Below the pieces are notes generated by a model. The model made no database searches. It had not been told where the DNA came from and worked only from the letters and a program-made list of their open reading frames with translations. Shown here piece after piece: positions 41,312 to 57,702 of a stretch of DNA of 64,000 nucleotides (the first letter of the stretch is position 1; each line of letters begins with the position of its first letter). The DNA comes from Promicromonospora sukumoe 327MFSha3.1 (GTDB taxonomy: Bacteria > Actinomycetota > Actinomycetes > Actinomycetales > Cellulomonadaceae). A program made the translations under genes and the position numbers. The stretch is taken from positions 868,001-932,000 of the forward strand of contig NZ_ARQM01000011.1 in the NCBI RefSeq assembly GCF_000385135.1, given 5' to 3'.

Positions 41312-43795
41312 ATGACCAGCGACGTCGAGGTGAACACCAGCCGTCGCGCCGGGGTGCCCCGCACCCGGCGTCCGGACCGCGAGGCCGGGCAGGCGCTCAC
41401 CGAGTACGTCGCGGTCATCGGCCTGCTCCTGCTGATCGTCGGCATGGTGTTCGCCGCGGCCACCCCGGTGGCCGCGGACATCGGCGAGCAGTGGTTGTGC
41501 GCCGTCGACCCCATCGTCAAGGAGGAGGGCGCGGACAACTGCGTCGACGACGACGGCGGTCCGGGGGAGCCCGGCGACTCCCCGAGCCCCGGGGACGACT
41601 ACAGCCCGCCGTCGGGCGACTGCGAGGAGGACGTCACCTTCGACTTCGTGGACAAGCCCGACTCCCAGTGGGACACCGCCGTCGTGCAGATCGACTGCGT
41701 CTGGTACCCGGGCCCGACCATCTGCTTCTCGGCGAACATGCCGGACGGGCACCTGGACCGCGACACCGATGACCAGGTGTACCTGGAGAGCGAGATCCAG
41801 GACTTCGTCGACTGCGTGCTCGACGGCCGGGGCGAGCCGAAGGACGACCCGAACGACGAGTCGTGCGTCAACACGATGCCGACCAGCGAGGAGTTCGACG
41901 AGGACGCCCCGCCGAAGGTGCAGGTGGGCTGCCGCGAGTACCCGGTGCCGAAGGGCTGCGAGGCCGAGTGGGCGGCGTACGAGGACGCCGAGCCCGGCAA
42001 GGAGCGGGCCGCGCGGTCGGGAGAGCTGGCCAACTGCATCACCGAGAAGTACAAGTCGATGGAGCCGACCTGCGTGGTCCAGGCCACCGGGCACGTGGAC
42101 AGCTCGGAGATCCAGTTCCTGTTCTTCCGCTGGGGCGACAGCAACGGCACGCTCATCGAGAAGCTGGGCGACGGGCGCATCCGCATCCACATCCTGACCG
42201 GGGTCGAGATGGGCGCCGGCGTGAGCGGCAGCGACGTGGGCGGCTCGCCGGTCAGCTTCGACATCGCCGGCATCACCGGGTACGGGACCGACAAGACGTA
42301 CGAGTTCACGGACATGCAGAAGGCCCAGGACTGGATCAACTGGTACAAGAGGTACGACCTGGCCAAGTCCATCGTCTACAGCGGTGGCGGCCGCAACTGC
42401 CCGCCGAACATGAGCTACTGCCCGCCGCCGCCCGACCACATGCCTGACGTCGGCGACGTGCAGGACCTCCAGGACGAGGAGCCCGAGCACCACGAGCTGG
42501 CCGAGGCCGACAGCGACATCAAGAAGGTGAAGCTCAAGGGCGGGCTCAGCCTGACCGGCAAGAACGGGCCGTTCTCCCTGACGGGCAGCGTCGAGGGCGG
42601 CTACGAGGGCGAGGTCCAGGTCGAGGACCGGCGCTGGTCCGACGGCAGCCGCACGGCCACGTACACGTCGTCCGACATCGGCGGGTTCCTGATCGGGGCC
42701 TCGCTGGGCGGCAAGAAGCCGTTCACCAAGGACAAGGACGGCAAGGAGACCAGCTCCGGCTCGGGCGCCGGCTCGGGCTCGGTGGGCATGGAGTGGAAGG
42801 GCACCACCAGCACCACGGCGGCCTGGGACAAGGAGGGCAAGCTCTCCAAGCTGATCATCTCGATGGACGAGCAGGTGATGCGCACCCTGGCCAAGGCCGG
42901 CATCGACCTGTCCGTGGCGCTGCCGTACGGCTTCGCGGTGAACGGCGGCTACAGCAGCTCCGAGGAGGAGGGCACCATCTCCAAGCGCGAGCTGATCATC
43001 GACTTCAACCAGTACCCGGAGCTGCGCGAGAAGCTCGGGCCCAAGATCGACGAGGCCTTCCCCCGCGACAAGGAGGGCAACCTCATCAAGGACGACGTCG
43101 AGATCGACGGGCAGGACGAGGAGGGCGGCGAGCTGTTCGAGGCCGCCGAGGACTACGCCAACGTGCGCGAGCTGACCTACGACGCGACCCGCTCGACCGA
43201 GGGCGGCAGCGGCGGCCTGACGTGGCAGGGGCTCGACCTGTTCAAGGTGTCGTTCACCTCGGTGGACGAGGAGCAGATCCTGTCGGAGTCGTCGTTCGAG
43301 GTGACCGACGTGGACGGCAACAAGCAGAAGGTCTCGCCGGCCCCGCAGTGCAAGGCCAAGGACTTCGAGCAGCCGCCCGCCTACTACAGCGACGACTTCT
43401 CGGACCCGCCCACACAGATCGGGCAGCAGAGCCACGACATCGGCACCGAGTACGTGGACAACAAGTCGCCCAAGTTCACCGAGGGCACCTACCCGGGCAC
43501 GGACTACGACGGCGACGTGCCCGGCGACCGGGCCGAGCGGGTGCACTCGCTGCTGGACGAGTACTCCGCGGCCTTCCCGGACAAGAACATCCTGGTGGTC
43601 AAGGACTTCGGCAACTTCAACTTCAGCGGCCTGTTCGGGTTCGTGCACCTGGCCACCGTCGACGGGATGGACGTCATCGGGATCAACCAGGGCACGGTGA
43701 AGAACAAGGGCGACGGCGGCTGGATCAACTGGGGGTTCACGGGCAACTACGACTACGACCCGGACACCAAGACCGTGAAGTTCAAGCAGCCGTGA
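41312..43795 (+). CDS. Giant prepilin-like secreted protein, long paralogue
   Basis: This 827-residue protein is not a family I recognise. It starts with a basic stretch and a class III prepilin signal, EAG/QALTE with Glu at +5 after G26, and a hydrophobic helix at about 32-56 (YVAVIGLLLLIVGMVFAAA). A Gly/Pro/Asp-rich linker follows, then a very large ectodomain rich in Lys/Asp/Glu with 14 cysteines. Repeated beta-like signatures occur around YTSSDIGGFLIGASLGGKKPF. The last roughly 125 residues (HSLLDEYSAAFPDKNILVV, GDGGWINWGFTGNYDYD) are absent from the paralogue. All 14 cysteines are conserved in that paralogue. Context is the Tad pilus locus, so surface display after prepilin-peptidase processing is inferred. 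Confidence 0.8.
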   Translation: MTSDVEVNTSRRAGVPRTRRPDREAGQALTEYVAVIGLLLLIVGMVFAAATPVAADIGEQWLCAVDPIVKEEGADNCVDDDGGPGEPGDSPSPGDDYSPPSGDCEEDVTFDFVDKPDSQWDTAVVQIDCVWYPGPTICFSANMPDGHLDRDTDDQVYLESEIQDFVDCVLDGRGEPKDDPNDESCVNTMPTSEEFDEDAPPKVQVGCREYPVPKGCEAEWAAYEDAEPGKERAARSGELANCITEKYKSMEPTCVVQATGHVDSSEIQFLFFRWGDSNGTLIEKLGDGRIRIHILTGVEMGAGVSGSDVGGSPVSFDIAGITGYGTDKTYEFTDMQKAQDWINWYKRYDLAKSIVYSGGGRNCPPNMSYCPPPPDHMPDVGDVQDLQDEEPEHHELAEADSDIKKVKLKGGLSLTGKNGPFSLTGSVEGGYEGEVQVEDRRWSDGSRTATYTSSDIGGFLIGASLGGKKPFTKDKDGKETSSGSGAGSGSVGMEWKGTTSTTAAWDKEGKLSKLIISMDEQVMRTLAKAGIDLSVALPYGFAVNGGYSSSEEEGTISKRELIIDFNQYPELREKLGPKIDEAFPRDKEGNLIKDDVEIDGQDEEGGELFEAAEDYANVRELTYDATRSTEGGSGGLTWQGLDLFKVSFTSVDEEQILSESSFEVTDVDGNKQKVSPAPQCKAKDFEQPPAYYSDDFSDPPTQIGQQSHDIGTEYVDNKSPKFTEGTYPGTDYDGDVPGDRAERVHSLLDEYSAAFPDKNILVVKDFGNFNFSGLFGFVHLATVDGMDVIGINQGTVKNKGDGGWINWGFTGNYDYDPDTKTVKFKQP

Positions 43796-43823
43796 GCGCG
43801 CGGGTGAAACCTTCCCGGGCTCT

Positions 43824-43858
43824 GGGCCCGTGGCCCCACCGCGTGGTGCCGCGGGCCC
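43824..43858 (+). terminator. GC-rich hairpin between the two prepilin-like paralogues
   Basis: GGGCCCG (43824-43830) pairs with CGGGCCC (43852-43858), with inner CCAC/GTGG pairing. There is no T tract. The rest of the 150-base gap shows no gene; the TTTTC before the next ATG is its only AT-rich part. Confidence 0.35.
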
Positions 43859-43945
43859 ATGACCTGCGGTTTCGGCGCGGATCTGTACGCCGACGGGACG
43901 TTTCCCGGACAGTTCGAGTTCACGCTCCCGTCCTAGTTTTCGAGC

Positions 43946-46042
43946 ATGACCAGACGAGATCGCGAGGCGGGACAGGCGCTCACCGAGTACGTCGCGGTCA
44001 TCGGTCTGCTGTTGCTGGTGGTCGGCATCGTGTTCGCCGCGGCGACGCCGGTGGCGGCCGACGTGAGCGAGCAGTGGCTGTGCGCCGTCGACCCGATCGT
44101 CAAGGAGGAGGGCGTCGACAGCTGCGGCGACCCCGGCTCCCCGGGGGACCCCGGTGACCCCGGCGACGACGAGTCCCCGGGGGACGAGTACAGCCCGCCC
44201 ACGGGCGACTGCGAGGACGACGTGACGTTCGACTTCGTGGACAAGCCCGACTCCCAGTGGGACACCGCCGTCGTGCAGATCGACTGCGTCTGGTACCCCG
44301 GCCCGACCATCTGCTTCTCCGTCAACATGCCCGAGGGGCACCTGGACCGCCCCCGGGACGAGCGGGTCTACCGCGAGGACGAGATCCAGGACTTCGTGGA
44401 CTGCGTGCTCGACGGCCGGGGCGAGCCGAAGGACGACCCGAACGACGAGTCGTGCGTCGCCACGCTGCCCACGAGCGAGGAGTTCGACGAGGACGCCCCG
44501 CCGAAGGTGCAGGTGGGCTGCCGCGAGCTGCCGGTGCCCAAGGGGTGCGAGGCCGAGTGGGCGGCCTACGAGGACGCCGAGCCCGGCAAGGAGCGCGCCG
44601 CACGGGCGGGCGAACTGGCCAACTGCGTCACCGAGAAGTACACCTCCATGGAGCCGCCGTGCGTCGTGGAGGCCACGGGGCACGTGGACAGCACCAACAT
44701 CCAGTTCCTGTTCTTCCGCTGGGGCGACAGCAACGGCACGCTCATCGAGAAGCTGGGCGACGGGCGCATCCGCATCCACATCCTCAAGGGCGTGGAGTTC
44801 GGCGTGGGTGCCAGCGGCAGCGACGTGGGCGGTACGCCCATCGCCTTCGACATCGCGGGCATCACCGGCTACGCCGAGGACTACACCTACGAGTTCACGG
44901 ACATGCAGAAGGCCCAGGACTGGATCAACTGGTACAAGAAGTACTCCCTGTCCGCGGAGATCGTGGCCTCCCCGCCGACGCACTGCCCGCCGCCGCACCT
45001 GAGCTCCTACTGCCCGCCGCCCCCGGACCACATGCCCGACGTCGGCGACGTGATGGACCTCCAGGACGAGGAGCCCGACCACCACCTGGTCGCCACCTCC
45101 ACGAGCGACGTCAAGAAGGTCAAGCTCAAGGGCGGCCTGAAGTGGGGCAAGGGCGTGGGCCCCGTCGAGCTCAAGGGCATCGTCGAGGGCGGCTACGAGG
45201 GCGAGATCCAGGTCGAGGACCGGCAGTGGTCGGACGGCTCGATGACGGCCACCTACACGTCGTCCGACATCGGTGGGTTCCTCATCGGGGCCGAGCTGTC
45301 CGGCAAGCAGCCCTTCACCAAGAAGAACGACAAGGAGACCAGCTCCGGCAAGGGCAAGGGCAAGGGGCAGGTCGGCATGGAGTGGAAGGGCACCACCAGC
45401 ACCTCGGTGGTCTGGAACAAGGACGGCGAGCTCTCCCGGCTCACGATCGCCATGGACGACCAGGTGATGAAGACGCTGTACAAGGCCGGCATCGACCTCG
45501 ACGTGGTGCTGCCGTACGGCTTCAAGGTGACGGGCGGGTACAGCAAGTCGGAGGAGGAGGGCACGCTCTCCAGGACCGAGCTCATCATCGACTTCAACCA
45601 GTACCCGGAGCTGCGCGAGAAGCTCGGCCCGAAGATCGACGAGATCTTCCCGCGCAACGACGACGGCACCCTGAAGAAGGGCGACGTCGAGATCAACGGC
45701 GAGGACGAGGAGGGCGGCGAGCTCTACGAGGCCGCCGAGGACTACGCCAACGTGCGCGAGCTCAAGTACGACATGGACAAGGTCACCGAGGGCGGCGGGT
45801 ACGGCCTGAAGTGGGAGGGCCTGGACCTGTTCAAGGTCGACTTCACCTCGGTCGACGAGAACCGCACCCTGTCCGAGTCGTCCTTCGAGGTGACCGACGT
45901 GGACGGCAACAAGCAGACGACGTCGCCGGCGCCGCAGTGCCGGGCCAAGGACTTCGAGGCGCCCGACGACTACTACACGACCGAGTTCTCCGCCCCGCCG
46001 ACCCCGACGTTCAGCGGCGGCAAGAGCTTCGGCAACCCATGA
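43946..46042 (+). CDS. Giant prepilin-like secreted protein, short paralogue
   Basis: The 698-residue product is a tandem paralogue of the preceding gene. It has the prepilin site EAG/QALTE (after G9, Glu at +5), the same hydrophobic helix and linker, the same 14 cysteines and the same domain order. It ends after the shared region with TPTFSGGKSFGNP and so lacks the long paralogue's C-terminal module. Parts of the DNA are almost identical to the first copy (for example 44231-44319 against 41642-41730), indicating recent duplication or gene conversion. It is convergent with DUF192, with 7 bases between stops. Function unknown. Confidence 0.8.
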   Translation: MTRRDREAGQALTEYVAVIGLLLLVVGIVFAAATPVAADVSEQWLCAVDPIVKEEGVDSCGDPGSPGDPGDPGDDESPGDEYSPPTGDCEDDVTFDFVDKPDSQWDTAVVQIDCVWYPGPTICFSVNMPEGHLDRPRDERVYREDEIQDFVDCVLDGRGEPKDDPNDESCVATLPTSEEFDEDAPPKVQVGCRELPVPKGCEAEWAAYEDAEPGKERAARAGELANCVTEKYTSMEPPCVVEATGHVDSTNIQFLFFRWGDSNGTLIEKLGDGRIRIHILKGVEFGVGASGSDVGGTPIAFDIAGITGYAEDYTYEFTDMQKAQDWINWYKKYSLSAEIVASPPTHCPPPHLSSYCPPPPDHMPDVGDVMDLQDEEPDHHLVATSTSDVKKVKLKGGLKWGKGVGPVELKGIVEGGYEGEIQVEDRQWSDGSMTATYTSSDIGGFLIGAELSGKQPFTKKNDKETSSGKGKGKGQVGMEWKGTTSTSVVWNKDGELSRLTIAMDDQVMKTLYKAGIDLDVVLPYGFKVTGGYSKSEEEGTLSRTELIIDFNQYPELREKLGPKIDEIFPRNDDGTLKKGDVEINGEDEEGGELYEAAEDYANVRELKYDMDKVTEGGGYGLKWEGLDLFKVDFTSVDENRTLSESSFEVTDVDGNKQTTSPAPQCRAKDFEAPDDYYTTEFSAPPTPTFSGGKSFGNP

Positions 46043-46559: not shown

Positions 46560-47375
46560 GTGCAGGTCATCGCGATCGGCGGTCCGGGGGGAACGCACCG
46601 GGGGGTCGGCCGGGCGGAGCGCACGCTGGGGGACGTCGTGGAGGCCGTCGCCCGGCTCTCCGCGGACGACGTGGTGCTGGCCACCCGTGACGACGCCGCC
46701 CGGCGGGTGGCCCGCTCCGCCCGCCTGGTGCTCGGCCCCGAACGGCTCGGCGTGCTGCACGTCGAGGCTCCCGTCACCGCGTGGGCGGTCATGCTGGCGG
46801 GGCTCGCCTCGCCGGGGCTGACGGCGTCGTCCGCCAGGGTGGTGGCCGACGAGGTGCTCTCGCGGACCAGCACGCGGGTGCTGCTGTCCAGCGTGGCCGC
46901 GCTGCACCGCCCCACACCGACGTTCCGCCAGCACGCGGGCAGCTACCTGCCGCGCACGGCGTTCGTGGTGGACCCGGGGCGCGGCTCGGAGCCCGGCTCC
47001 GTGCGCCGCTTCCGGGGCAACCTCGGGGTGCCCGACGGCGGTGCGCTGCTCGTCGCGGCGCGGTCCGCGCGGCCCGTCGTGCCGGACGAGGCCGGCGACC
47101 TGCTGCCCCGGGAGCCCGACACCGAGCTGACCGGCGCCGAGGCGGGCTGGTCCGCCAGGCGGTGGCTGGAGGTGTCGACCATCGCCGGCTCGCTGGAGAC
47201 GGCCGTCGCGAGCGCGCTCGCCCGGTCCTATCTCTGGGGCGCCTGCGACACGTGCGGCCGGGCCGTGGCCCAGAGCTGCATCTTCTGCGACATCGCGGAG
47301 CGTCGTGCCCGCGCCGAGACCAGGGCCGGCGCGCAGACCGGCCCGCAGACCGAGACACAGGGAGTGATCAGTTGA
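46560..47375 (+). CDS. Tad-locus protein of unknown function with C-terminal zinc ribbon
   Basis: This 271-residue protein is not recognised. The N-terminal 150 residues are alpha/beta with no nucleotide-binding loop (VIAIGGPGGTHRGVG, then VVLATRDDAARRVARSARL). GWSARRWLEVSTIAGSLETAVASALARSYLWG precedes a four-cysteine zinc-ribbon-like motif, CDTCGRAVAQSCIFC, near residue 240. No signal peptide or transmembrane segment is evident, so it is probably cytoplasmic. It is the first gene of the Tad assembly operon; its stop overlaps the cpaB TTG start. GTG 46560 is taken as start; no strong SD confirms it. Confidence 0.65.
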   Translation: MQVIAIGGPGGTHRGVGRAERTLGDVVEAVARLSADDVVLATRDDAARRVARSARLVLGPERLGVLHVEAPVTAWAVMLAGLASPGLTASSARVVADEVLSRTSTRVLLSSVAALHRPTPTFRQHAGSYLPRTAFVVDPGRGSEPGSVRRFRGNLGVPDGGALLVAARSARPVVPDEAGDLLPREPDTELTGAEAGWSARRWLEVSTIAGSLETAVASALARSYLWGACDTCGRAVAQSCIFCDIAERRARAETRAGAQTGPQTETQGVIS

Positions 47376-48076
47376 ACCCGCGTCAGCGCCGGGGAGTGTT
47401 CTTCCTCGTCGTCACCTCGATCCTGGCGGTCGCCGTGTTCGTCGGCGTCCTCTACTACGTGCGCACCGTGAGCTCGCAGGTGGGGCCCATGGTCACCGTG
47501 CTCCAGCTCAACCGGTCGGTCGACGCCCTGGAGCCCGTCGACGAGGACATGCTGGACCGCGTCCGGGTGCCGGAGCGCTGGGTACCGGACACCGCGGTGC
47601 GCAGCGCCGACGACGCCGACGGCCTCGTGGCGGCCACCTCGTTCGAGGCGGGCTCGCTGCTGCAGTCCGGGATGCTCGTCGAGCGGCCGGGCGTGCAGCC
47701 GGGGTTCCGCGAGGTCGCGATCATCGTGGACGCCGAGACCGGCGTGGCCGGCAAGGTCGAGCCCGGCGACCACGTGGACATCATCGCCACGATGGAGGGC
47801 GCCAAGGACGAGAAGCCGGTCTCGCGGGTCTGGGTGTCCAACGTGCTGGTCCTGGAGGTCGGCATCCCGCGCACCGTCGAGGCCTCGGACAGCCTGGAGA
47901 TGCGCAGCGGGCTGCCGGTGACGTTCGCGCTGAGCACCGAGGACGCGCTGACCCTGGCCTACGTCGAGTCCTTCTCCGTGAAGATGCGCCTGGCCCTGCG
48001 CGGCGCGGGCGACGAGGACATGCTCCCCGAGCAGCAGCGCGTGTACGACGGCGCGATCCCGAAGTCGGAGGGCTGA
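47372..48076 (+). CDS. cpaB: CpaB/RcpC-type Flp pilus assembly protein
   Basis: The 234-residue protein has an N-terminal membrane anchor (VFFLVVTSILAVAVFVGVLYYV), a SAF-like segment (VDEDMLDRVRVPERWVPDTAV, then GLVAATSFEAGSLL) and a RcpC region (VAIIVDAETGVAGKVEPGDHVDIIATM). CpaB/RcpC is a periplasmic/cell-wall component of Tad pili. The start is TTG 47372, overlapping the upstream stop (TTGA), with AGGGAG seven bases before it. Other starts would not preserve the N-terminal anchor. Confidence 0.85.
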   Translation: MNPRQRRGVFFLVVTSILAVAVFVGVLYYVRTVSSQVGPMVTVLQLNRSVDALEPVDEDMLDRVRVPERWVPDTAVRSADDADGLVAATSFEAGSLLQSGMLVERPGVQPGFREVAIIVDAETGVAGKVEPGDHVDIIATMEGAKDEKPVSRVWVSNVLVLEVGIPRTVEASDSLEMRSGLPVTFALSTEDALTLAYVESFSVKMRLALRGAGDEDMLPEQQRVYDGAIPKSEG

Positions 48077-48078
48077 GC

Positions 48079-49704
48079 ATGGTCACCAAGGTGCTGCTCG
48101 CCACGCCGGCGCACGAGGTCCGGGACCACCTGGGCCACATCTTCGCGGAGTCCGACGGGTTCGAGCTCGCGGCCGCGGTGTCCGACGGCGCGGGCGTGCT
48201 CACGGCGCTCGACCGGCAGCCGGACATCGAGATCGTGGTGGTGGACGAGGCCGCCGACGACGGGCACGGGCACGCCGTTGCCCGCAGCGTCGGCCTGGCC
48301 ACCCCGCTGACCGGCATCGTCATGGTCGTCGACGCGCACGGACCCGCCGAGATGAGCCGGGCGATGGGCGCCGCGATGGAGGTCGGCGCGCGGTCGGTGA
48401 TCGCCCGGAACGCGGGCCTGGAGGAGGTGCTGACCCGGCTGGAGGCGGTGGCCTCCTGGTCGGCGATGGCGCGGGCCTCGATCGCCGCGGAGCGCAACGG
48501 CGGCCGCAGCGGCCAGGTCGTCGCGATCGCCGGGGCCAAGGGCGGCGTCGGGACCTCGGTGCTGTCCCTGCTCCTGGCGCGCGCCGGGCGCACGAACGAC
48601 ACCCTCCTGGTCGACCTGGACCTCGGGGCCGGTGACCTCACCGCCTACACCGGGGTGCGCACCCGCCGCTCGGTGGTGGACCTGGCCGCGGTCGAGGGCG
48701 AGGTCACCGGGCGGATGCTGCGCGAGACCACCTACGAGGTGCCCGGCGGCCTGCGGCTGCTGCCCGCCCCCGCCGAGGGCGAGCGGGCCGAGGCGATGAC
48801 GCCGGCCGCCGTCCGGTCGATCGTGAGCGCCCTGCGGTTCGAGTCCGGCCTGGCCGTGATCGACGTCGGCGCCCACCTGGACGAGCCACGGGCCACGGCC
48901 CTGGAGTTCGCGGACCGCGTGCTGCTGGTGACCACCCCGGACCTGCCGTCCCTGCGCGCCGCGCGCCGCAGCCTGGCGCAGTGGGACCGGCTGGCCGTGC
49001 GGCGCCCGGCGACGGTCGAGCTGGTGCTCAACCGGCGCACCCCGCGCGACGAGGTGACGCCCGCCCTGGTGGAGCGCATCGTGGAGCGGCCCATCGCCTT
49101 CACGGTGCCCGACGGCGGCACCGCGTTCGCCGGCGCGGTCAACACGGCCACGCTCCTGGAGACGCCCACGCCGGTGCACACCGCCGTGGCGGAGGTCGGC
49201 GTCGCGGCGATCCAGCCCCAGGCGGCCGCCGCGCGCGAGGGCACGCCCGACGGGCCCACCGAGGTCGAGTCGCTGGTCGCGGGCACGGGGCGGCGGGCGG
49301 GCAGGCGGCCGGGGCGGCGCAAGGGCGCCGACCCCGAGGCCGGCCAGGCCACCGCCGAGCTGCCCGTGGTCATCCTCATGGTGCTCATGGTGGTGCTGCT
49401 GTGCGTGCAGGGCATCGGGTGGGCCTCCGGCCTGCTCGCGGCGCGGGCCGCCGCGCAGGAGGGGGCCCGCACGGTCGGCGTCCTCGGGTACTACGACGCG
49501 CTGGGCCAGCCCCGCGACGACGTCGTCGACCAGGTGCGCGACGACGTGCGCGAGCAGCTCCCGGGCCCGTACCGCGCCGCCGTCGGCGACTCCGACATCG
49601 AGGTGTCGCCGCAGGAGGTCAGCGTGCGCGTGACCGTCTCGACGATCCTGCCGGGCGTGGACCTGTCCGCGTCGTCGTCGGCCGCCGTCTACCGGGAGGG
49701 CTGA
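48079..49704 (+). CDS. tadZ: TadZ/CpaE-like ATPase fused to a TadE-like pseudopilin
   Basis: The 541-residue protein has a receiver-like N-terminal domain (about 1-125) and a MinD/ParA-type ATPase domain with a deviant Walker A, AKGGVGTSVLS (K154), plus LLVDLDLGAGDLTAYTG. A basic linker (RRAGRRPGRRKG) then leads to a class III prepilin site EAG/QATAE (G422/Q423), a hydrophobic helix and a TadE-like periplasmic segment (AAQEGARTVGVLGYYDALGQ). TadZ positions the Tad machine in the cytosol, whereas TadE is an exported minor pseudopilin; their fusion is unusual. Prepilin peptidase cleavage could separate the halves. The frame is continuous without a stop. Confidence 0.85.
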   Translation: MVTKVLLATPAHEVRDHLGHIFAESDGFELAAAVSDGAGVLTALDRQPDIEIVVVDEAADDGHGHAVARSVGLATPLTGIVMVVDAHGPAEMSRAMGAAMEVGARSVIARNAGLEEVLTRLEAVASWSAMARASIAAERNGGRSGQVVAIAGAKGGVGTSVLSLLLARAGRTNDTLLVDLDLGAGDLTAYTGVRTRRSVVDLAAVEGEVTGRMLRETTYEVPGGLRLLPAPAEGERAEAMTPAAVRSIVSALRFESGLAVIDVGAHLDEPRATALEFADRVLLVTTPDLPSLRAARRSLAQWDRLAVRRPATVELVLNRRTPRDEVTPALVERIVERPIAFTVPDGGTAFAGAVNTATLLETPTPVHTAVAEVGVAAIQPQAAAAREGTPDGPTEVESLVAGTGRRAGRRPGRRKGADPEAGQATAELPVVILMVLMVVLLCVQGIGWASGLLAARAAAQEGARTVGVLGYYDALGQPRDDVVDQVRDDVREQLPGPYRAAVGDSDIEVSPQEVSVRVTVSTILPGVDLSASSSAAVYREG

Positions 49705-49705
49705 G

Positions 49706-50062
49706 ATGGCCTCGGGCACGCGGCGCGAGCGGGGCCAGGCGACCGTCGAGCTCGTCGGCGTCGTGTTCGCCATGGTGCTGGTCGCGCTGCTGGCGATCCA
49801 GGGGATCACCGTGGCGCAGACGGCGTCGATCGCGCAGGAGGCCGCCCGCAACGGCGCCCGGGCCCTGAGCATCGGCGGCGACGCGCACGGCGAGGCGCAG
49901 CGGGCGGTCCCGGACGGGCTGACCGTCCGGGACATCCAGGTGGCGGTCGACGACGGCACGGCGCGCGTGCGGGTCACGGTCACGGCGCCGCTGGGGCTGG
50001 CGGGCATGAAGGTGGTCGACGTCGCGCTGACCCGTACCGCCGCGTTCCCGGTGGACGGCTGA
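49706..50062 (+). CDS. tadE: TadE family minor pseudopilin
   Basis: This 118-residue protein has the prepilin signal ERG/QATVE (G10/Q11, Glu15), a single hydrophobic helix (LVGVVFAMVLVALLAIQGI) and a short extracytoplasmic domain. It starts one base after the stop of the TadZ-TadE fusion, giving two adjacent TadE-like pseudopilins. It is typical of Tad loci. Confidence 0.88.
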   Translation: MASGTRRERGQATVELVGVVFAMVLVALLAIQGITVAQTASIAQEAARNGARALSIGGDAHGEAQRAVPDGLTVRDIQVAVDDGTARVRVTVTAPLGLAGMKVVDVALTRTAAFPVDG

Positions 50063-50078: not shown

Positions 50079-51407
50079 ATGGCACTGCGCGACCGGCTCG
50101 CCGCCGACGAGCGGCACGACGAGGACAACGACCTCGCCAAGGTGTACCGCGAGCGGCTGCTCGAGGAGATCGACGTCGACGAGCTCGCCCGGCTCTCGCC
50201 GGCCCAGCGGCGGGTGCGGCTGGAGCGGGTGCTGTCCCGGCTGCTTTCGGTGGACGGGCCCGTGCTGTCCGCGCGCGAGCGCGGCGCCCTGGTGCAGCGG
50301 ATCACCGACGACGCGCTCGGCCTGGGCGTGCTGGAGCCGCTCCTGGCGGACGAGTCCATCACCGAGATCATGGTCAACGGCCCGGACGACGTGTTCGTGG
50401 AGCGCTACGGCAAGGTCGAGCGGGTGCCGGCCCGGTTCGCGTCGGCGGAGCAGCTCTACCAGACCATCGACCGGATCGTGTCGCAGGTGAACCGCCGCGT
50501 GGACGAGTCCTCGCCGATGGTCGACGCGCGCCTCCCGAGCGGCGAGCGCGTCAACGTGATCATCCCGCCGCTGGCCCTGGACGGGCCCACGCTGACCATC
50601 CGCCGGTTTCCGACGCCGTTCCGGATGGGCGAGCTGGTGGACAAGGGCACCCTGGACGTGACGACGGCGAGCCTGCTCGGCGCGTGCGTGCGGGCCCGGC
50701 TGAACATCGTGGTCTCGGGCGGCACCGGCTCCGGCAAGACGACGTTCCTCAACGCGCTGTCCGGCCTGATCCCCGACCACGAGCGCATCGTCACCATCGA
50801 GGACGCCGCCGAGCTCTCCCTGCAGCAGGGGCACGTGGTGCGGCTGGAGTCCCGGCCGGCGAACGTGGAGGGGCGCGGCGCCGTCGCCATCCGCGACCTG
50901 GTGCGCAACGCGCTGCGCATGCGGCCCGACCGGATCATCGTCGGCGAGGTCCGCGGCGGCGAGACGCTCGACATGCTCCAGGCGATGAACACGGGCCACG
51001 ACGGCTCGGTGGCCACGGTCCACGCCAACACGGCGCGCGACGCGCTGGGCCGCCTGGAGACGCTGGCCTCGATGAGCGAGCTGGACCTGCCCTCGGCGAC
51101 CCTGCGGGACCAGATCAACTCCGCGATCGACCTGGTGGTGCACCTGGAGCGCGCGCAGGACGGGTCCCGCCGCGTGCTCGAGGTGCAGGCCGTGACCTCC
51201 CAGCGGCGCGAGGAGTACGCGCTGACACCCCTGATGCGGTTCGTCTCCGAGCCGCTCGGCCCCGACCGCACCGTGGCCGGCCGGTTCGTGCCCGAGCCCG
51301 TGCCCGCCGACCTGCTGGAGCGGCTGCACCGGGCGGGCGAGACGGTGCTGACCGCGTCGGCTCCCGCCGAGCCGGCCCAGCCCGCCGCCACGGGAGGTGC
51401 GTCGTGA
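50079..51407 (+). CDS. tadA: TadA/CpaF secretion ATPase
   Basis: The 442-residue hexameric type II/IV secretion ATPase powers pilus extension. EIMVNGPDDVFVERYGKVERV marks the N-terminal domain. Walker A SGGTGSGKTTFLN lies near 214-226, the Asp box is TIEDAAELSLQQGHVVRLE, and Walker B and His-box regions follow (DRIIVGEVRGGETLDMLQAMNTGHDGS). AGAGGGAGAGG precedes the ATG. The stop overlaps the tadB GTG. Confidence 0.95.
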   Translation: MALRDRLAADERHDEDNDLAKVYRERLLEEIDVDELARLSPAQRRVRLERVLSRLLSVDGPVLSARERGALVQRITDDALGLGVLEPLLADESITEIMVNGPDDVFVERYGKVERVPARFASAEQLYQTIDRIVSQVNRRVDESSPMVDARLPSGERVNVIIPPLALDGPTLTIRRFPTPFRMGELVDKGTLDVTTASLLGACVRARLNIVVSGGTGSGKTTFLNALSGLIPDHERIVTIEDAAELSLQQGHVVRLESRPANVEGRGAVAIRDLVRNALRMRPDRIIVGEVRGGETLDMLQAMNTGHDGSVATVHANTARDALGRLETLASMSELDLPSATLRDQINSAIDLVVHLERAQDGSRRVLEVQAVTSQRREEYALTPLMRFVSEPLGPDRTVAGRFVPEPVPADLLERLHRAGETVLTASAPAEPAQPAATGGAS

Positions 51408-52327
51408 CCGTCCTGCTGATCGCCGCGGGCCTGCTGCTGACCCTCCTCATGGCCGCCGCCACCGTCGCGACGCTCGTCAGCAACGCCGAGACCGAGCGGC
51501 GCATGGTCGAGACCGCCGACCTCGACCAGCTCGCCGGGGTCTCCGTGTTCACGCGGATCGACGAGCGGCTGGCCCGGCGGCGCTGGGGCCAGCGCCTCGT
51601 GGCGCTGCTCGCCGGCGCCGGTCTGCCGGCCTGGTCGCCGTCGCTGTTCCTGACGGCCGCCTGCGCCGGGGCCCTCCTGGCTGGCCTGGCCGTGCTGCCC
51701 CTGTTCGGCTGGGCCACGGCGGCGCTCGCGGTGCTGCTGGTCGCGATCGGCGCGCAGCGCTGGCTGGATCGGCGGCGCAAGCAGCGCGTGGACCGGTTCG
51801 TGGCGCAGCTCCCGGAGCTGGCGCGGCTGCTGGCGAACGGCGCCTCCGCGGGGCTGGCCGTGCGCCGCTCGCTGGAGATGGCGGCCGAGGAGATGTCCGA
51901 GCCGGCGGCGTCCGAGGTGGCCCAGGTCAGCGCCGAGATGGCGGTGGGCCGGTCCATGCGGGACGCGCTGTCGGGCCTGAGCGAGCGGCTGCCGTCCCGG
52001 GAGCTGTCGGTGCTGGTGCAGACGCTGACCATCCAGGGCCGCTCGGGCGGCGAGCTGGTCACCGCGCTCGGCGGCATCGGGCAGACGCTGGAGGAGCGCC
52101 GCCGCCTGCGCCGCGAGGTGGTGACGTCCACGATGGGCGCCCAGTTCTCGGGCTACACGGTGATTTTTCTGGCGTTCGGCGCGGTGGCGCTGATGAACGC
52201 GTTCAGCCCCGGCGTGGTGGACGTGATGATCACGAACCTGGCGGGCCAGGTGGTGCTCCTGGTGGCGACCGGCCTGTTCGTCGTCGGCTACCTGGTGGTC
52301 CGGCGGCTGTCGCGGGTGGAGGTGTGA
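51404..52327 (+). CDS. tadB: TadB inner-membrane platform protein
   Basis: The 307-residue protein has an N-terminal hydrophobic helix, a helix pair around residues 80-115 and a GspF-type domain (FVAQLPELARLLANGASAGLAVRRSLEMAAEEM, then RSGGELVTALGGIGQTLEERRRLRREV). Two C-terminal membrane helices end the protein. It forms the platform with TadC. GTG overlaps the tadA stop. Confidence 0.92.
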   Translation: MTVLLIAAGLLLTLLMAAATVATLVSNAETERRMVETADLDQLAGVSVFTRIDERLARRRWGQRLVALLAGAGLPAWSPSLFLTAACAGALLAGLAVLPLFGWATAALAVLLVAIGAQRWLDRRRKQRVDRFVAQLPELARLLANGASAGLAVRRSLEMAAEEMSEPAASEVAQVSAEMAVGRSMRDALSGLSERLPSRELSVLVQTLTIQGRSGGELVTALGGIGQTLEERRRLRREVVTSTMGAQFSGYTVIFLAFGAVALMNAFSPGVVDVMITNLAGQVVLLVATGLFVVGYLVVRRLSRVEV

Positions 52328-52328
52328 C

Positions 52329-53210
52329 GTGGAGGGGCTGATCGTCGCGGCGGGTGCCGCACTGGCGGCGGTGCTGGGGATGGTCGCGCTGCGGCTGCTG
52401 ACCAGCACCGGCCTGGAGGAGGTCGAGGCCGAGTACGCACCCGAGGCCGAGGAGCGGCCGCGCGGGTTCGTGGCCGTGCTGGACCGGATCGGGGCACCGC
52501 TGCTGCCGCTGGCCGTGCGGCTGTACGGGCGGCAGCGCCTGCAGCGCCTCGACACGGTCATCCGGCGGGCGGGCCGGCCCGAGGGCGTGACCCTGACGAT
52601 GTTCGTGCGGCGCGAGGCGGGCCTCGTGCTGCTCGGCGTCCTGTTCGGGCTGCTGTTCGTGGTCCAGGACCTGTGGACGGTCGGCGTGCCGATCGGCCTG
52701 GTGCTGTGCGCCTGGATGCGGATCTGGCTGTACACCGAGGCGGGCCGGCGCCGGCGGCAGATCGACACCGAGCTGCCCGACTTCCTCGACGTGCTGGCCG
52801 TGACCGTGACGGCGGGCCTCGGCTTCCGGCAGGCCCTGGAGCGGGTGTGCGAGTTCCACGGCGGCGCGCTGGCGGCCGAGATGCGCACGGCGCTGGAGGA
52901 GATGAACGTCGGCGCGTCCCGGCGGCAGACCTTCGTGGCGCTGCGCGAGCGCAGCAAGTCGCCCGCCGTCGGGTCGTTCGTGACAGCGCTGTTGCAGGCC
53001 GAGGAGCTGGGCGTGCCGCTGGCGGACGCGCTCACCGGCATCGCCTCGGACGTGCGCCGCGAGCACGCCGAGACCGTGCGGCAGCGCGCGGCCCGGGCGG
53101 CGCCGCTGGTGTCCCTGGCCGTGACGATGACGATCCTGCCGGGCGCGCTGATCCTCATCGTGTCGGCCGTGCTGGTCGCGAACGCGGGGGTGCTCGGTGA
53201 ACTTTTCTGA
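52329..53210 (+). CDS. tadC: TadC inner-membrane platform protein
   Basis: The 293-residue GspF-family protein carries LPDFLDVLAVTVTAGLGFRQALERV and TFVALRERSKSPAVGSFVTALLQAEELGVPLADAL, flanked by hydrophobic helices near residues 5, 95 and 260. It partners TadB. The GTG at 52329 is one base from the tadB stop. Its 3' end overlaps the start of the histidine kinase gene by 14 bases. Confidence 0.92.
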   Translation: MEGLIVAAGAALAAVLGMVALRLLTSTGLEEVEAEYAPEAEERPRGFVAVLDRIGAPLLPLAVRLYGRQRLQRLDTVIRRAGRPEGVTLTMFVRREAGLVLLGVLFGLLFVVQDLWTVGVPIGLVLCAWMRIWLYTEAGRRRRQIDTELPDFLDVLAVTVTAGLGFRQALERVCEFHGGALAAEMRTALEEMNVGASRRQTFVALRERSKSPAVGSFVTALLQAEELGVPLADALTGIASDVRREHAETVRQRAARAAPLVSLAVTMTILPGALILIVSAVLVANAGVLGELF

Positions 53211-55182: not shown

Positions 55183-55428
55183 ATGAACAAGCTGATCGAG
55201 AAGGCCACCGCCGCCCGCATCGCGCTCGCGGCCGTCGCCGAGCGTGCGGCCCGCCGGGCCCGCGACGACGAGCGCGGCCAGGGCACCGTCGAGTACGTCG
55301 GCGCGGTCCTGCTGGTCGTGGCCGTCGTCGGTATCGTCATCGCCGCGGCGAGCGACGTCGGCGACGCGATCGTCACGCAGCTCACCGACGCCGTGAACGA
55401 CATCGCGGGCGCGGGCGGCGGCGAGTAA
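55183..55428 (+). CDS. flp: Flp family type IVb major pilin
   Basis: The 81-residue pilin has the class III signal ERG/QGTVE (G32/Q33, Glu37), followed by VEYVGAVLLVVAVVGIVIAAA and a short C-terminal region, giving a mature pilin of about 49 residues. It is preceded by GGAGG at a suitable spacing. Small size, motif and location among tad genes identify the major pilin. Confidence 0.93.
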   Translation: MNKLIEKATAARIALAAVAERAARRARDDERGQGTVEYVGAVLLVVAVVGIVIAAASDVGDAIVTQLTDAVNDIAGAGGGE

Positions 55429-56993: not shown

Positions 56994-57015
56994 CCCACCC
57001 ATACCAGGAGTGACC

Positions 57016-57702
57016 ATGCCCCGACGGACCGACGACCGTGAGCGCGGCTCGATGCACGTGATGACGATCCCCGTCGCCGTCGGGATGCTGACCGCAGCGG
57101 TGCTGGTGATCGCGATGTTCGGCTCGGCCACGAACGACCGCCGCGAGGCGGGCACCGCCGCCGACGCCGCGGCGCTCGCCGCCGCCCAGGAGTGGGACGA
57201 CCGGCTGGGCCACCTGCCCGCGCTGCACCTCCTGGGCGGGGAGCGCTCGGCGTTCTGGGAGCTGCTCGAGGAGGCGCTGCTCGGCCCCGGCACCGAGGAG
57301 GAGATGTACGAGGCGGCGCGCCAGTACGCCGAGCGCAACGGCGCCGAGCTGGTCGACCTCGACGTCGACGTCGCGCGCCTGCGGGTCACCGCCGAGGTGC
57401 GGCACCACGAGGTGGTGCCCGGCACCGGGATCGCCTCGGAGGCGCGCGCGACGGCGGGGATCCGCCTGAGCGGCGGCCTGTGCCTGGACGGCGGCCTGGG
57501 CTGGCTGATCGACGGCGAGTGCGTCACCGAGGCGCCCCCGGAGGAGGACGAGGACGCGGGTGCCGGAGACGGCGGTGGCTCCGGCACCGGCGACGACTCG
57601 GGTGACGAGGACTCAGGCGACGCCGACTCCGGTGACGAGGAGGACGACTGGACCCCGCCCGAGGTGACGGCTTACGCGAGCGACGTCGTCCTGGTGGACT
57701 GA
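57016..57702 (+). CDS. TadG-like pilus assembly protein
   Basis: The 228-residue protein has an N-terminal RERG/SMHVM segment similar to prepilin signals but without Glu at +5. A hydrophobic helix follows (VAVGMLTAAVLVIAMFGSAT), then AGTAADAAALAAAQEWDD, a typical TadG/Tad-domain feature. The C terminus is an acidic Asp/Gly/Ser-rich tail. ATG 57016, five bases after CAGGAG, is preferred to GTG 57010. It is the last gene of the Tad cluster. Confidence 0.75.
   Translation: MPRRTDDRERGSMHVMTIPVAVGMLTAAVLVIAMFGSATNDRREAGTAADAAALAAAQEWDDRLGHLPALHLLGGERSAFWELLEEALLGPGTEEEMYEAARQYAERNGAELVDLDVDVARLRVTAEVRHHEVVPGTGIASEARATAGIRLSGGLCLDGGLGWLIDGECVTEAPPEEDEDAGAGDGGGSGTGDDSGDEDSGDADSGDEEDDWTPPEVTAYASDVVLVD

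Follow-up and report, generated by a model that had tools for sequence, protein, structure and literature searches.

We analysed a window of 64,000 nucleotides from Promicromonospora sukumoe 327MFSha3.1 (contig NZ_ARQM01000011.1, positions 868,001 to 932,000) and found that two tandem genes, here called P1 and P2, encode large pilin-like proteins at the edge of a locus for a Tad pilus. The nearest named record for the window is Promicromonospora kroppenstedtii DSM 19349, at 96% identity. An earlier reading of the DNA letters alone (the sequence-only reading) had described adjacent open reading frames (ORFs) of 827 and 698 residues, each with the prepilin signal G/QALTE, one hydrophobic helix and 14 shared cysteines, beside tad genes and with no known domain in the ectodomains. 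This description was borne out. The two genes and their parts are as follows.

41312..43795, + strand: P1, 827 residues, putative Flp-headed modular pilin (basis: ORF, homologues and the ratio of non-synonymous to synonymous substitution, dN/dS)
41312..41389, + strand: P1 leader of 26 residues, with cleavage predicted at G/QALTEY, after G26 (basis: sequence)
41390..41539, + strand: P1 Flp-like unit, residues 27-76 (basis: profile alignment to Flp)
41543..41617, + strand: P1 linker rich in Pro, Gly and Asp, residues 78-102 (basis: sequence)
41618..43411, + strand: P1 cysteine-rich, beta-rich ectodomain, residues 103-700 (basis: cysteines, partial model)
43442..43792, + strand: P1 C-terminal module, residues 711-827 (basis: module relatives, structure model)
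43946..46042, + strand: P2, 698 residues, tandem paralogue of P1 without the C-terminal module
43946..43972, + strand: P2 leader of 9 residues, with cleavage predicted after G9 (basis: sequence)

We found that the heads of P1 and P2 resemble complete Flp subunits. Flp pilins are 50-80 residues long and have the motif G/XXXXEY (PMC4322843). Both proteins have this motif, as G/QALTEY with the Flp-type Tyr at +6, ahead of a hydrophobic helix of about 20 residues. The Kyte-Doolittle maximum over 19 residues lies at the stretch after the motif and is 2.71 for P1 and 2.83 for P2. Beyond residue 70 it falls to 1.37 in P1 and 1.11 in P2, and there is no second credible membrane helix. The first 56 residues (P1 22-77) of 20 members of the family were set against 13 sequences of Flp pilins and 8 of TadE, both sets taken from loci of the same kind as those of the P1 family. 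The profile alignment to Flp covered 54 of the 56 columns (probability 98.3, E 2.5e-14), which is homology over the whole mature Flp. In contrast, the alignment to TadE covered 25 columns (probability 86.6) and took in no more than the signal and the first part of the helix. Mean ungapped identity of the heads was 32% to Flp and 22% to TadE.

Based on this near end-to-end alignment, P1 and P2 look like Flp subunits followed by a linker rich in Pro, Gly and Asp and a large ectodomain. The architecture of modular pilins, a pilin module with an extra C-terminal module, is thus present as Flp unit, linker and ectodomain. Both proteins are far larger than a Flp pilin, and we therefore class them as Flp-headed and not as plain Flp. 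The major pilin Flp of the window, with which their heads align nearly end to end, stops 49 residues past its cleavage glycine, whereas P1 continues for 801 residues. Nor did they qualify as TadE- or TadG-type minor pilins: P1 matched no Pfam family at E<=1, and P2 matched only DUF2002 (0.27 in Pfam, 0.17 in NCBIfam), which we rejected as chance. Elsewhere, tad genes have Flp-headed proteins of intermediate size next to them, which extend 253 and 218 residues beyond the glycine (L038:11784-12689 and L052:2730-3446, both on the minus strand); this suggests that Flp-headed proteins come in a range of sizes.

P1 and P2 are 79% identical over their common part, and each has exactly 14 cysteines, all of them common to both. 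In an alignment of 20 hand-picked rows from P1-like ORFs (A1; a relative at 27%, L053, and broken copies were left out), all 14 P1 cysteine columns were cysteine in 20/20 rows, and G26 and E31 were likewise invariant. The G+C content at third codon positions was 0.989 for P1 and 0.981 for P2, compared to 0.982-0.984 for three neighbouring genes. Against the P. kroppenstedtii orthologues, dN/dS was 0.16 for P1 and 0.17 for P2, compared to 0.08 for TadA; more distant pairs gave higher values (0.49 for P1/P2, 0.45 for P1 and its P. citrea counterpart). These values indicate that P1 and P2 are constrained yet evolve faster than the Tad machine.

We measured the association of such proteins with Tad in 200 genomes of the window's GTDB family. 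Large prepilins were searched for with P1, which matched 20 genomes, and with a profile (A5) of related tad-linked prepilin-headed proteins, which matched 39; the union is 42 genomes. Long P1 homologues occurred in 12 of the 200, the window's own genome included. The RcpC protein of the window matched 81 genomes, with a gap between 45 at E<=6.3e-30, which we count as strong matches, and the rest at E>=1.9e-10. All 42 genomes with a large prepilin fell within these 45, and none of the 155 others had one (Fisher p 5e-40, a descriptive value as the genomes are related; diverged members could be missed). Taking one hand-chosen prepilin place per genome, prepilin and RcpC were on one contig in 38 of the 42, at a median distance of 10.5 kb and a maximum of 14.0 kb. 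They were on different contigs in the other four (G128, G154, G175 and G194); in G128 and G175 other tad genes share the contig with the prepilin.

We also mapped P1 homologues relative to tad genes, as the sequence-only reading had proposed. There were tad genes in 12 of the 20 P1-family regions fetched (L034, L036, L038, L040-L043, L046, L047, L049, L051 and L052). The consistent absence from tad loci that would have spoken against a pilus role was not found for the family, although single copies lie elsewhere. Each of the 12 genomes with long members had at least one tad-linked copy, and copy number at tad loci varied from 1 to 3. In a sample of 13 genomes of the genus, all 8 with P1 matched the TadZ-TadE frame of the window at E<1e-180. 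Of the 5 without P1, three had no match to TadZ-TadE and two had partial matches at 26-28%; RcpC was unmatched in all 5.

Comparison of profiles extended the family. The A1 profile joined A5, which represents proteins of about 470 residues next to tad genes in another genus of the family, over P1 ectodomain residues ~252-570 (probability 93.6, E 2.1e-7). The heads of the A5 proteins are without Tyr at +6. A second set of such prepilin-headed proteins (A4), with the Flp-type Tyr at +6 in 3 of 4 rows, joined A5 over almost its whole length (99.4) and A1 directly in the head region only (95.4). Given the joins of A5 to A1 and to A4, P1 is a single branch within a broader group of large prepilins linked to tad.

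The genome also has a third paralogue of P1, on another contig (C10:776937, 48% identity), adjoining an ORF that we take to be purC. A copy in a second genome (G097) adjoins the same purC-like ORF, so that this non-tad paralogue (L033, L039) stands beside the presumed purC in two Promicromonospora genomes, which suggests an old, vertically kept orphan copy. There is a probable pseudogene in P. umidemergens, where a P1 relative (L044, the same as L075) is broken up among several frames.

P1 and P2 differ at the C-terminus, where a module of about 110 residues (P1 ~711-827) is missing from P2 and its orthologues. The module-less Promicromonospora proteins form one clade (5 rows, support 100/100). 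A Phycicoccus relative (L076) is also without the module, which makes two changes on the tree, with long-branch warnings. The module was rare overall: a module profile matched 1 of 246 genomes of the phylum, the window's own, compared to 16 of 199 genomes in the genus of G222 (taken as Streptomyces). In structure prediction the module gave a mean predicted local distance difference test score (pLDDT) of 80.9, mostly about 90 after residue 30, with one helix and eight strands. In proteins of Streptomyces and Nocardioides, matches to DUF7888 (PF25411) reach into the module at E 0.04-0.9, far short of the cut-off; a DUF7888 search of the window genome gave no match, and we treat this family as a lead only.

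The module occurs in varied company. It is found at the C-terminus of TadG in 2 of the 4 fetched g14 genomes (Myceligenerans pegani and M. salitolerans); the TadG ORFs with a module relative near the C-terminus are L046:4791-5768 and L049:8143-9120. In 11 of 11 Streptomyces/Nocardioides loci, three modules stand in a row behind a prepilin-type head (heads read by eye, 10/11 with Tyr at +6); one of these loci has a histidine kinase and a regulator at 29-35%. Longer stretches from 14 of the 16 genomes in the genus of G222 (G446 and G584 were left out) held 17 module-bearing ORFs. Four were prepilin-headed triples, and a further triple combined a GH30 domain (75.6 bits, cut-off 23) with a B_lectin match that stayed under threshold. 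A ricin-type lectin domain was present in five, four over a Pfam cut-off and one just under. Another five were small single-module proteins, three with an evident Sec-type signal (by eye) and two cut by a contig end or a stretch of N. The last two, both in L118, were fragments that look like a broken second copy.

Searches for known domains in P1 and P2 agreed with the sequence-only reading. There was no significant match in Pfam, NCBIfam, PHROGs or PADLOC. P1-family profiles gave nothing usable against PDB sequences, and we put the matches that did appear (E 0.25 or worse) down to chance. FadL/porin matches of the P1 model in Foldseek were low-ranking (best E 2.8e-3, probability 0.16, template modelling score 0.09) and were rejected, as were those in BFVD, none of which reached E<=0.001. 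There was no vWA domain in the Pfam scan or among the best 50 of 633 Foldseek matches, although the model is poor and a split vWA like that of CpaL could escape such a search. Phage origin of P1 was rejected on the lack of any match in the phage collection. Plasmid cargo was rejected as well: two Streptomyces plasmids matched, by the C-terminal module only.

The tad locus lies downstream of P1 and P2. RcpC, TadE, T2SSE (TadA) and Tad (TadG) exceeded Pfam cut-offs, and the TadZ-like protein, TadB, TadC and Flp were assigned from weak matches, order, size and motif.

47372..48076, + strand: RcpC/CpaB (Pfam RcpC 4e-20)
48079..49704, + strand: TadZ-like ATPase and TadE-like pilin sharing a single open frame (sub-threshold Pfam CbiA 0.00098, TadE 0.016)
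49706..50062, + strand: TadE-like minor pilin (Pfam TadE 5.6e-6)
50079..51407, + strand: TadA/CpaF assembly ATPase (Pfam T2SSE 9.5e-70)
51404..53210, + strand: TadB and TadC platform proteins (named from position, size and conservation)
55183..55428, + strand: Flp major pilin (G/QGTVEY and size; 49 residues after the glycine; no Pfam match over cut-off)
57010..57702, + strand: TadG-like protein (Pfam Tad 5.3e-6)

The genome has one match to an A24 prepilin peptidase, outside the tad locus and about 178 kb from P1 (C11:731600). Actinobacterial tad loci are typically without a peptidase gene (PMC4322843), as here. Two further features of the locus stood out. In 48079-49704 no stop codon separates the TadZ-like ATPase from the TadE-like prepilin, whose G/QATAEL site is near residue 422, and 10 of the 18 genomes searched likewise had a near-full-length match free of stops. 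TadE might have its own start at either of two GTG codons, which lie 56 and 52 residues before the glycine, so that TadZ-TadE is only a candidate fusion. A conserved gene directly upstream of that for RcpC (46560-47375) has a CxxC...CxxC pattern near the C-terminus and keeps its position in related tad loci; Pfam gave nothing over cut-off for it.

Our computations establish the homology to Flp, the genomic link to Tad, the conservation of the proteins and the domains that accompany the module. We propose, with a probability of roughly 0.6, that P1 and P2 are modular pilins with a Flp head, which a monoderm Tad pilus displays, probably as adhesins. The hydrophobic Flp helix would insert each protein into the membrane with the ectodomain outside, where its cysteines may form disulfides. 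The A24 prepilin peptidase would remove the leaders after G26 of P1 and G9 of P2, and the Tad machine (TadA/B/C) would add the proteins to the Flp pilus. There the ectodomains would decorate the tip, and possibly the shaft, given the linker, and bind a surface. The C-terminal module of P1 would most likely recognise carbohydrate, a reading based on its domain company. The pilus-tip adhesin that the sequence-only reading had suggested is plausible, and gains from the presence of the module with lectin and glycosidase domains. That reading was right in kind, as to a surface protein associated with the pilus, and the survey of genomes made the tie to Tad stronger than the window by itself could; its "possible new class of pilus-borne effector" is not supported in that wording, because large grafted modules on pilins are established (PMC8179133, PMC12075869, PMC12607857) and our analysis gave no sign of toxicity or delivery.

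Several results weigh against this proposal. P1 and P2 lie outside the tad operon: P2 follows P1, and between P2 and the operon is a minus-strand ORF, presumably DUF192-like. Tad genes were missing from 8 of the 20 P1-family regions (L033, L035, L037, L039, L044, L045, L048 and L050; the third paralogue of the window genome is among them, and L035 and L044 are near contig ends). They were also missing from the 10-kb flanks of L076. Triple-module prepilins of Streptomyces and Nocardioides were without a recognisable tad core gene in 11/11 loci, searched with the window's proteins as queries in flanks of at most 10 kb, some much shorter. In the survey, no large prepilin was detected in three RcpC-positive genomes (G047, G082 and G186), the match in G194, which is among the 42, covered the head only, in a frame of 339 residues, and the relatedness of the genomes means that the co-occurrence counts are not independent. 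Conservation of the cysteines was weaker in a broader alignment of 23 rows that includes the distant Phycicoccus protein (A2): 5 of the 14 were invariant, 8 were at >=90% and C363 was below. The full-length P1 model was partial (pLDDT 62.8, predicted template modelling score 0.59, with residues 1-96 at pLDDT <50), and Foldseek gave no match at E<=0.001 to PDB or BFVD. The module alone had no Pfam match over cut-off and no Foldseek match in PDB (best E 0.47), and domain company is the sole ground for associating it with carbohydrate.

It is possible that P1 and P2 are surface proteins, processed as prepilins or not, that use the Flp helix only as a membrane anchor and never enter a pilus, the linkage to Tad reflecting shared regulation or export by the Tad machine. 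The copies without tad genes in the fetched flanks and the Streptomyces prepilins just described are in keeping with this, as are the separate transcription unit of P1 and P2 and an ectodomain much bigger than the 49-residue Flp. We think it unlikely. The Flp homology extends beyond the membrane helix, a simple anchor would not need to co-occur with Tad, and a tad-linked copy is kept in each genome with long members. We give still less weight to a role as minor pilins in the priming of assembly or the sensing of contact with a surface, and not as adhesins. In Caulobacter, both piliation and the sensing of surfaces are affected by CpaL, which resembles Tad minor pilins and has a large module (PMC12607857), and P2 is kept though it is without the putative binding module. 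The locus already encodes TadE- and TadG-type proteins, however, and in our judgement a primer that is essential would not usually vary from 1 to 3 copies per tad locus.

Contact-dependent killing tips, or polymorphic-toxin-like effectors on the pilus, seem to us very improbable here. The principle is shown by the Kil Tips of Myxococcus (PMC12075869). In another genus, a Flp-headed ORF of 418 residues (L060:8605-9858, minus strand) has an HEVNH motif in its C-terminal part, and it matches the metallopeptidase family DUF6782 below threshold (E 0.029, 14.1 bits, cut-off 27). The 16.7-kb region around that ORF had no match to the tad proteins of the window. In P1 the C-terminal module is not polymorphic but conserved across the family or absent, and polymorphic toxins, which have a variable toxin C-terminus, were rejected on this basis. 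The module is also found with lectins and as small proteins, and PADLOC gave no match for P1 or P2. Where a polymorphic toxin would have an adjacent immunity gene, P1 is followed by P2 and then by the presumed DUF192-like ORF on the minus strand, no search aimed at immunity genes having been made.

If P1 and P2 are Flp-headed modular pilins, then the pili of this soil actinobacterium carry bulky surface-binding proteins, as the architecture suggests. To our knowledge, the decoration and specificity of Gram-positive Tad pili are poorly known. The large prepilins of 42 of the 45 genomes with strong RcpC matches, and of none of the other 155, are a concrete candidate set for pilus decoration. The module, which occurs on pilins, on TadG and on proteins with lectin or glycosidase domains, lends itself to studies of structure and ligands. 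A broader notion, which we hold only tentatively and consider rather doubtful, is that a whole Flp is a widespread actinobacterial scaffold for disulfide-stabilised binding ectodomains of ~400-800 residues. In this notion the shared core of the ectodomains and the module would be new folds, the module being a new carbohydrate-binding domain exchanged among pilins, TadG and secreted lectins. A Gram-positive Tad pilus would then show bulky disulfide-stabilised binding proteins along its shaft and at its tip.

We found no description of the P1/P2 family in the titles and abstract starts of the open-access literature, closed papers being outside the scope of the search. What is new is the P1/P2 family, the complete Flp subunit as carrier, and the ectodomain. 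Modular pilins themselves are already known: more than 1,200 pilins with a grafted module, in 264 architectures, have been described (PMC8179133). Among them, PilB and PilC of the monoderm Streptococcus sanguinis are like P1 and P2 in combining a pilin module with a large C-terminal non-pilin module, and display at the tip and adhesion have been proposed for them, as we propose here. PilB differs in that its pilin module is a globular type IV one and in that it carries a vWA domain (PMC8179133); P1 and P2 have a Flp-like helical head and an ectodomain without a recognised domain.

Large proteins are also associated with other Tad systems. Tad pili of Myxococcus bear exchangeable Tips that contain KilN minor pilins of large size, and modelling points to a modular C-terminus in the TadG proteins of several Tad systems (PMC12075869). 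These resemble P1 and P2 in size and association with Tad, and have variable distal domains and predicted disulfides. They are set apart, by description, by a predicted beta-stranded pilin fold, kinship with TadG and occurrence in diderms (PMC12075869), compared to the Flp-type head of P1 and P2. CpaL of Caulobacter crescentus, with a predicted vWA domain, is likewise large (at least 626 residues) and Tad-associated, and has a beta-rich insert. It differs in its vWA/MIDAS (metal ion-dependent adhesion site) and globular pilin module (PMC12607857); P1 and P2 gave no vWA match in the Pfam scan.

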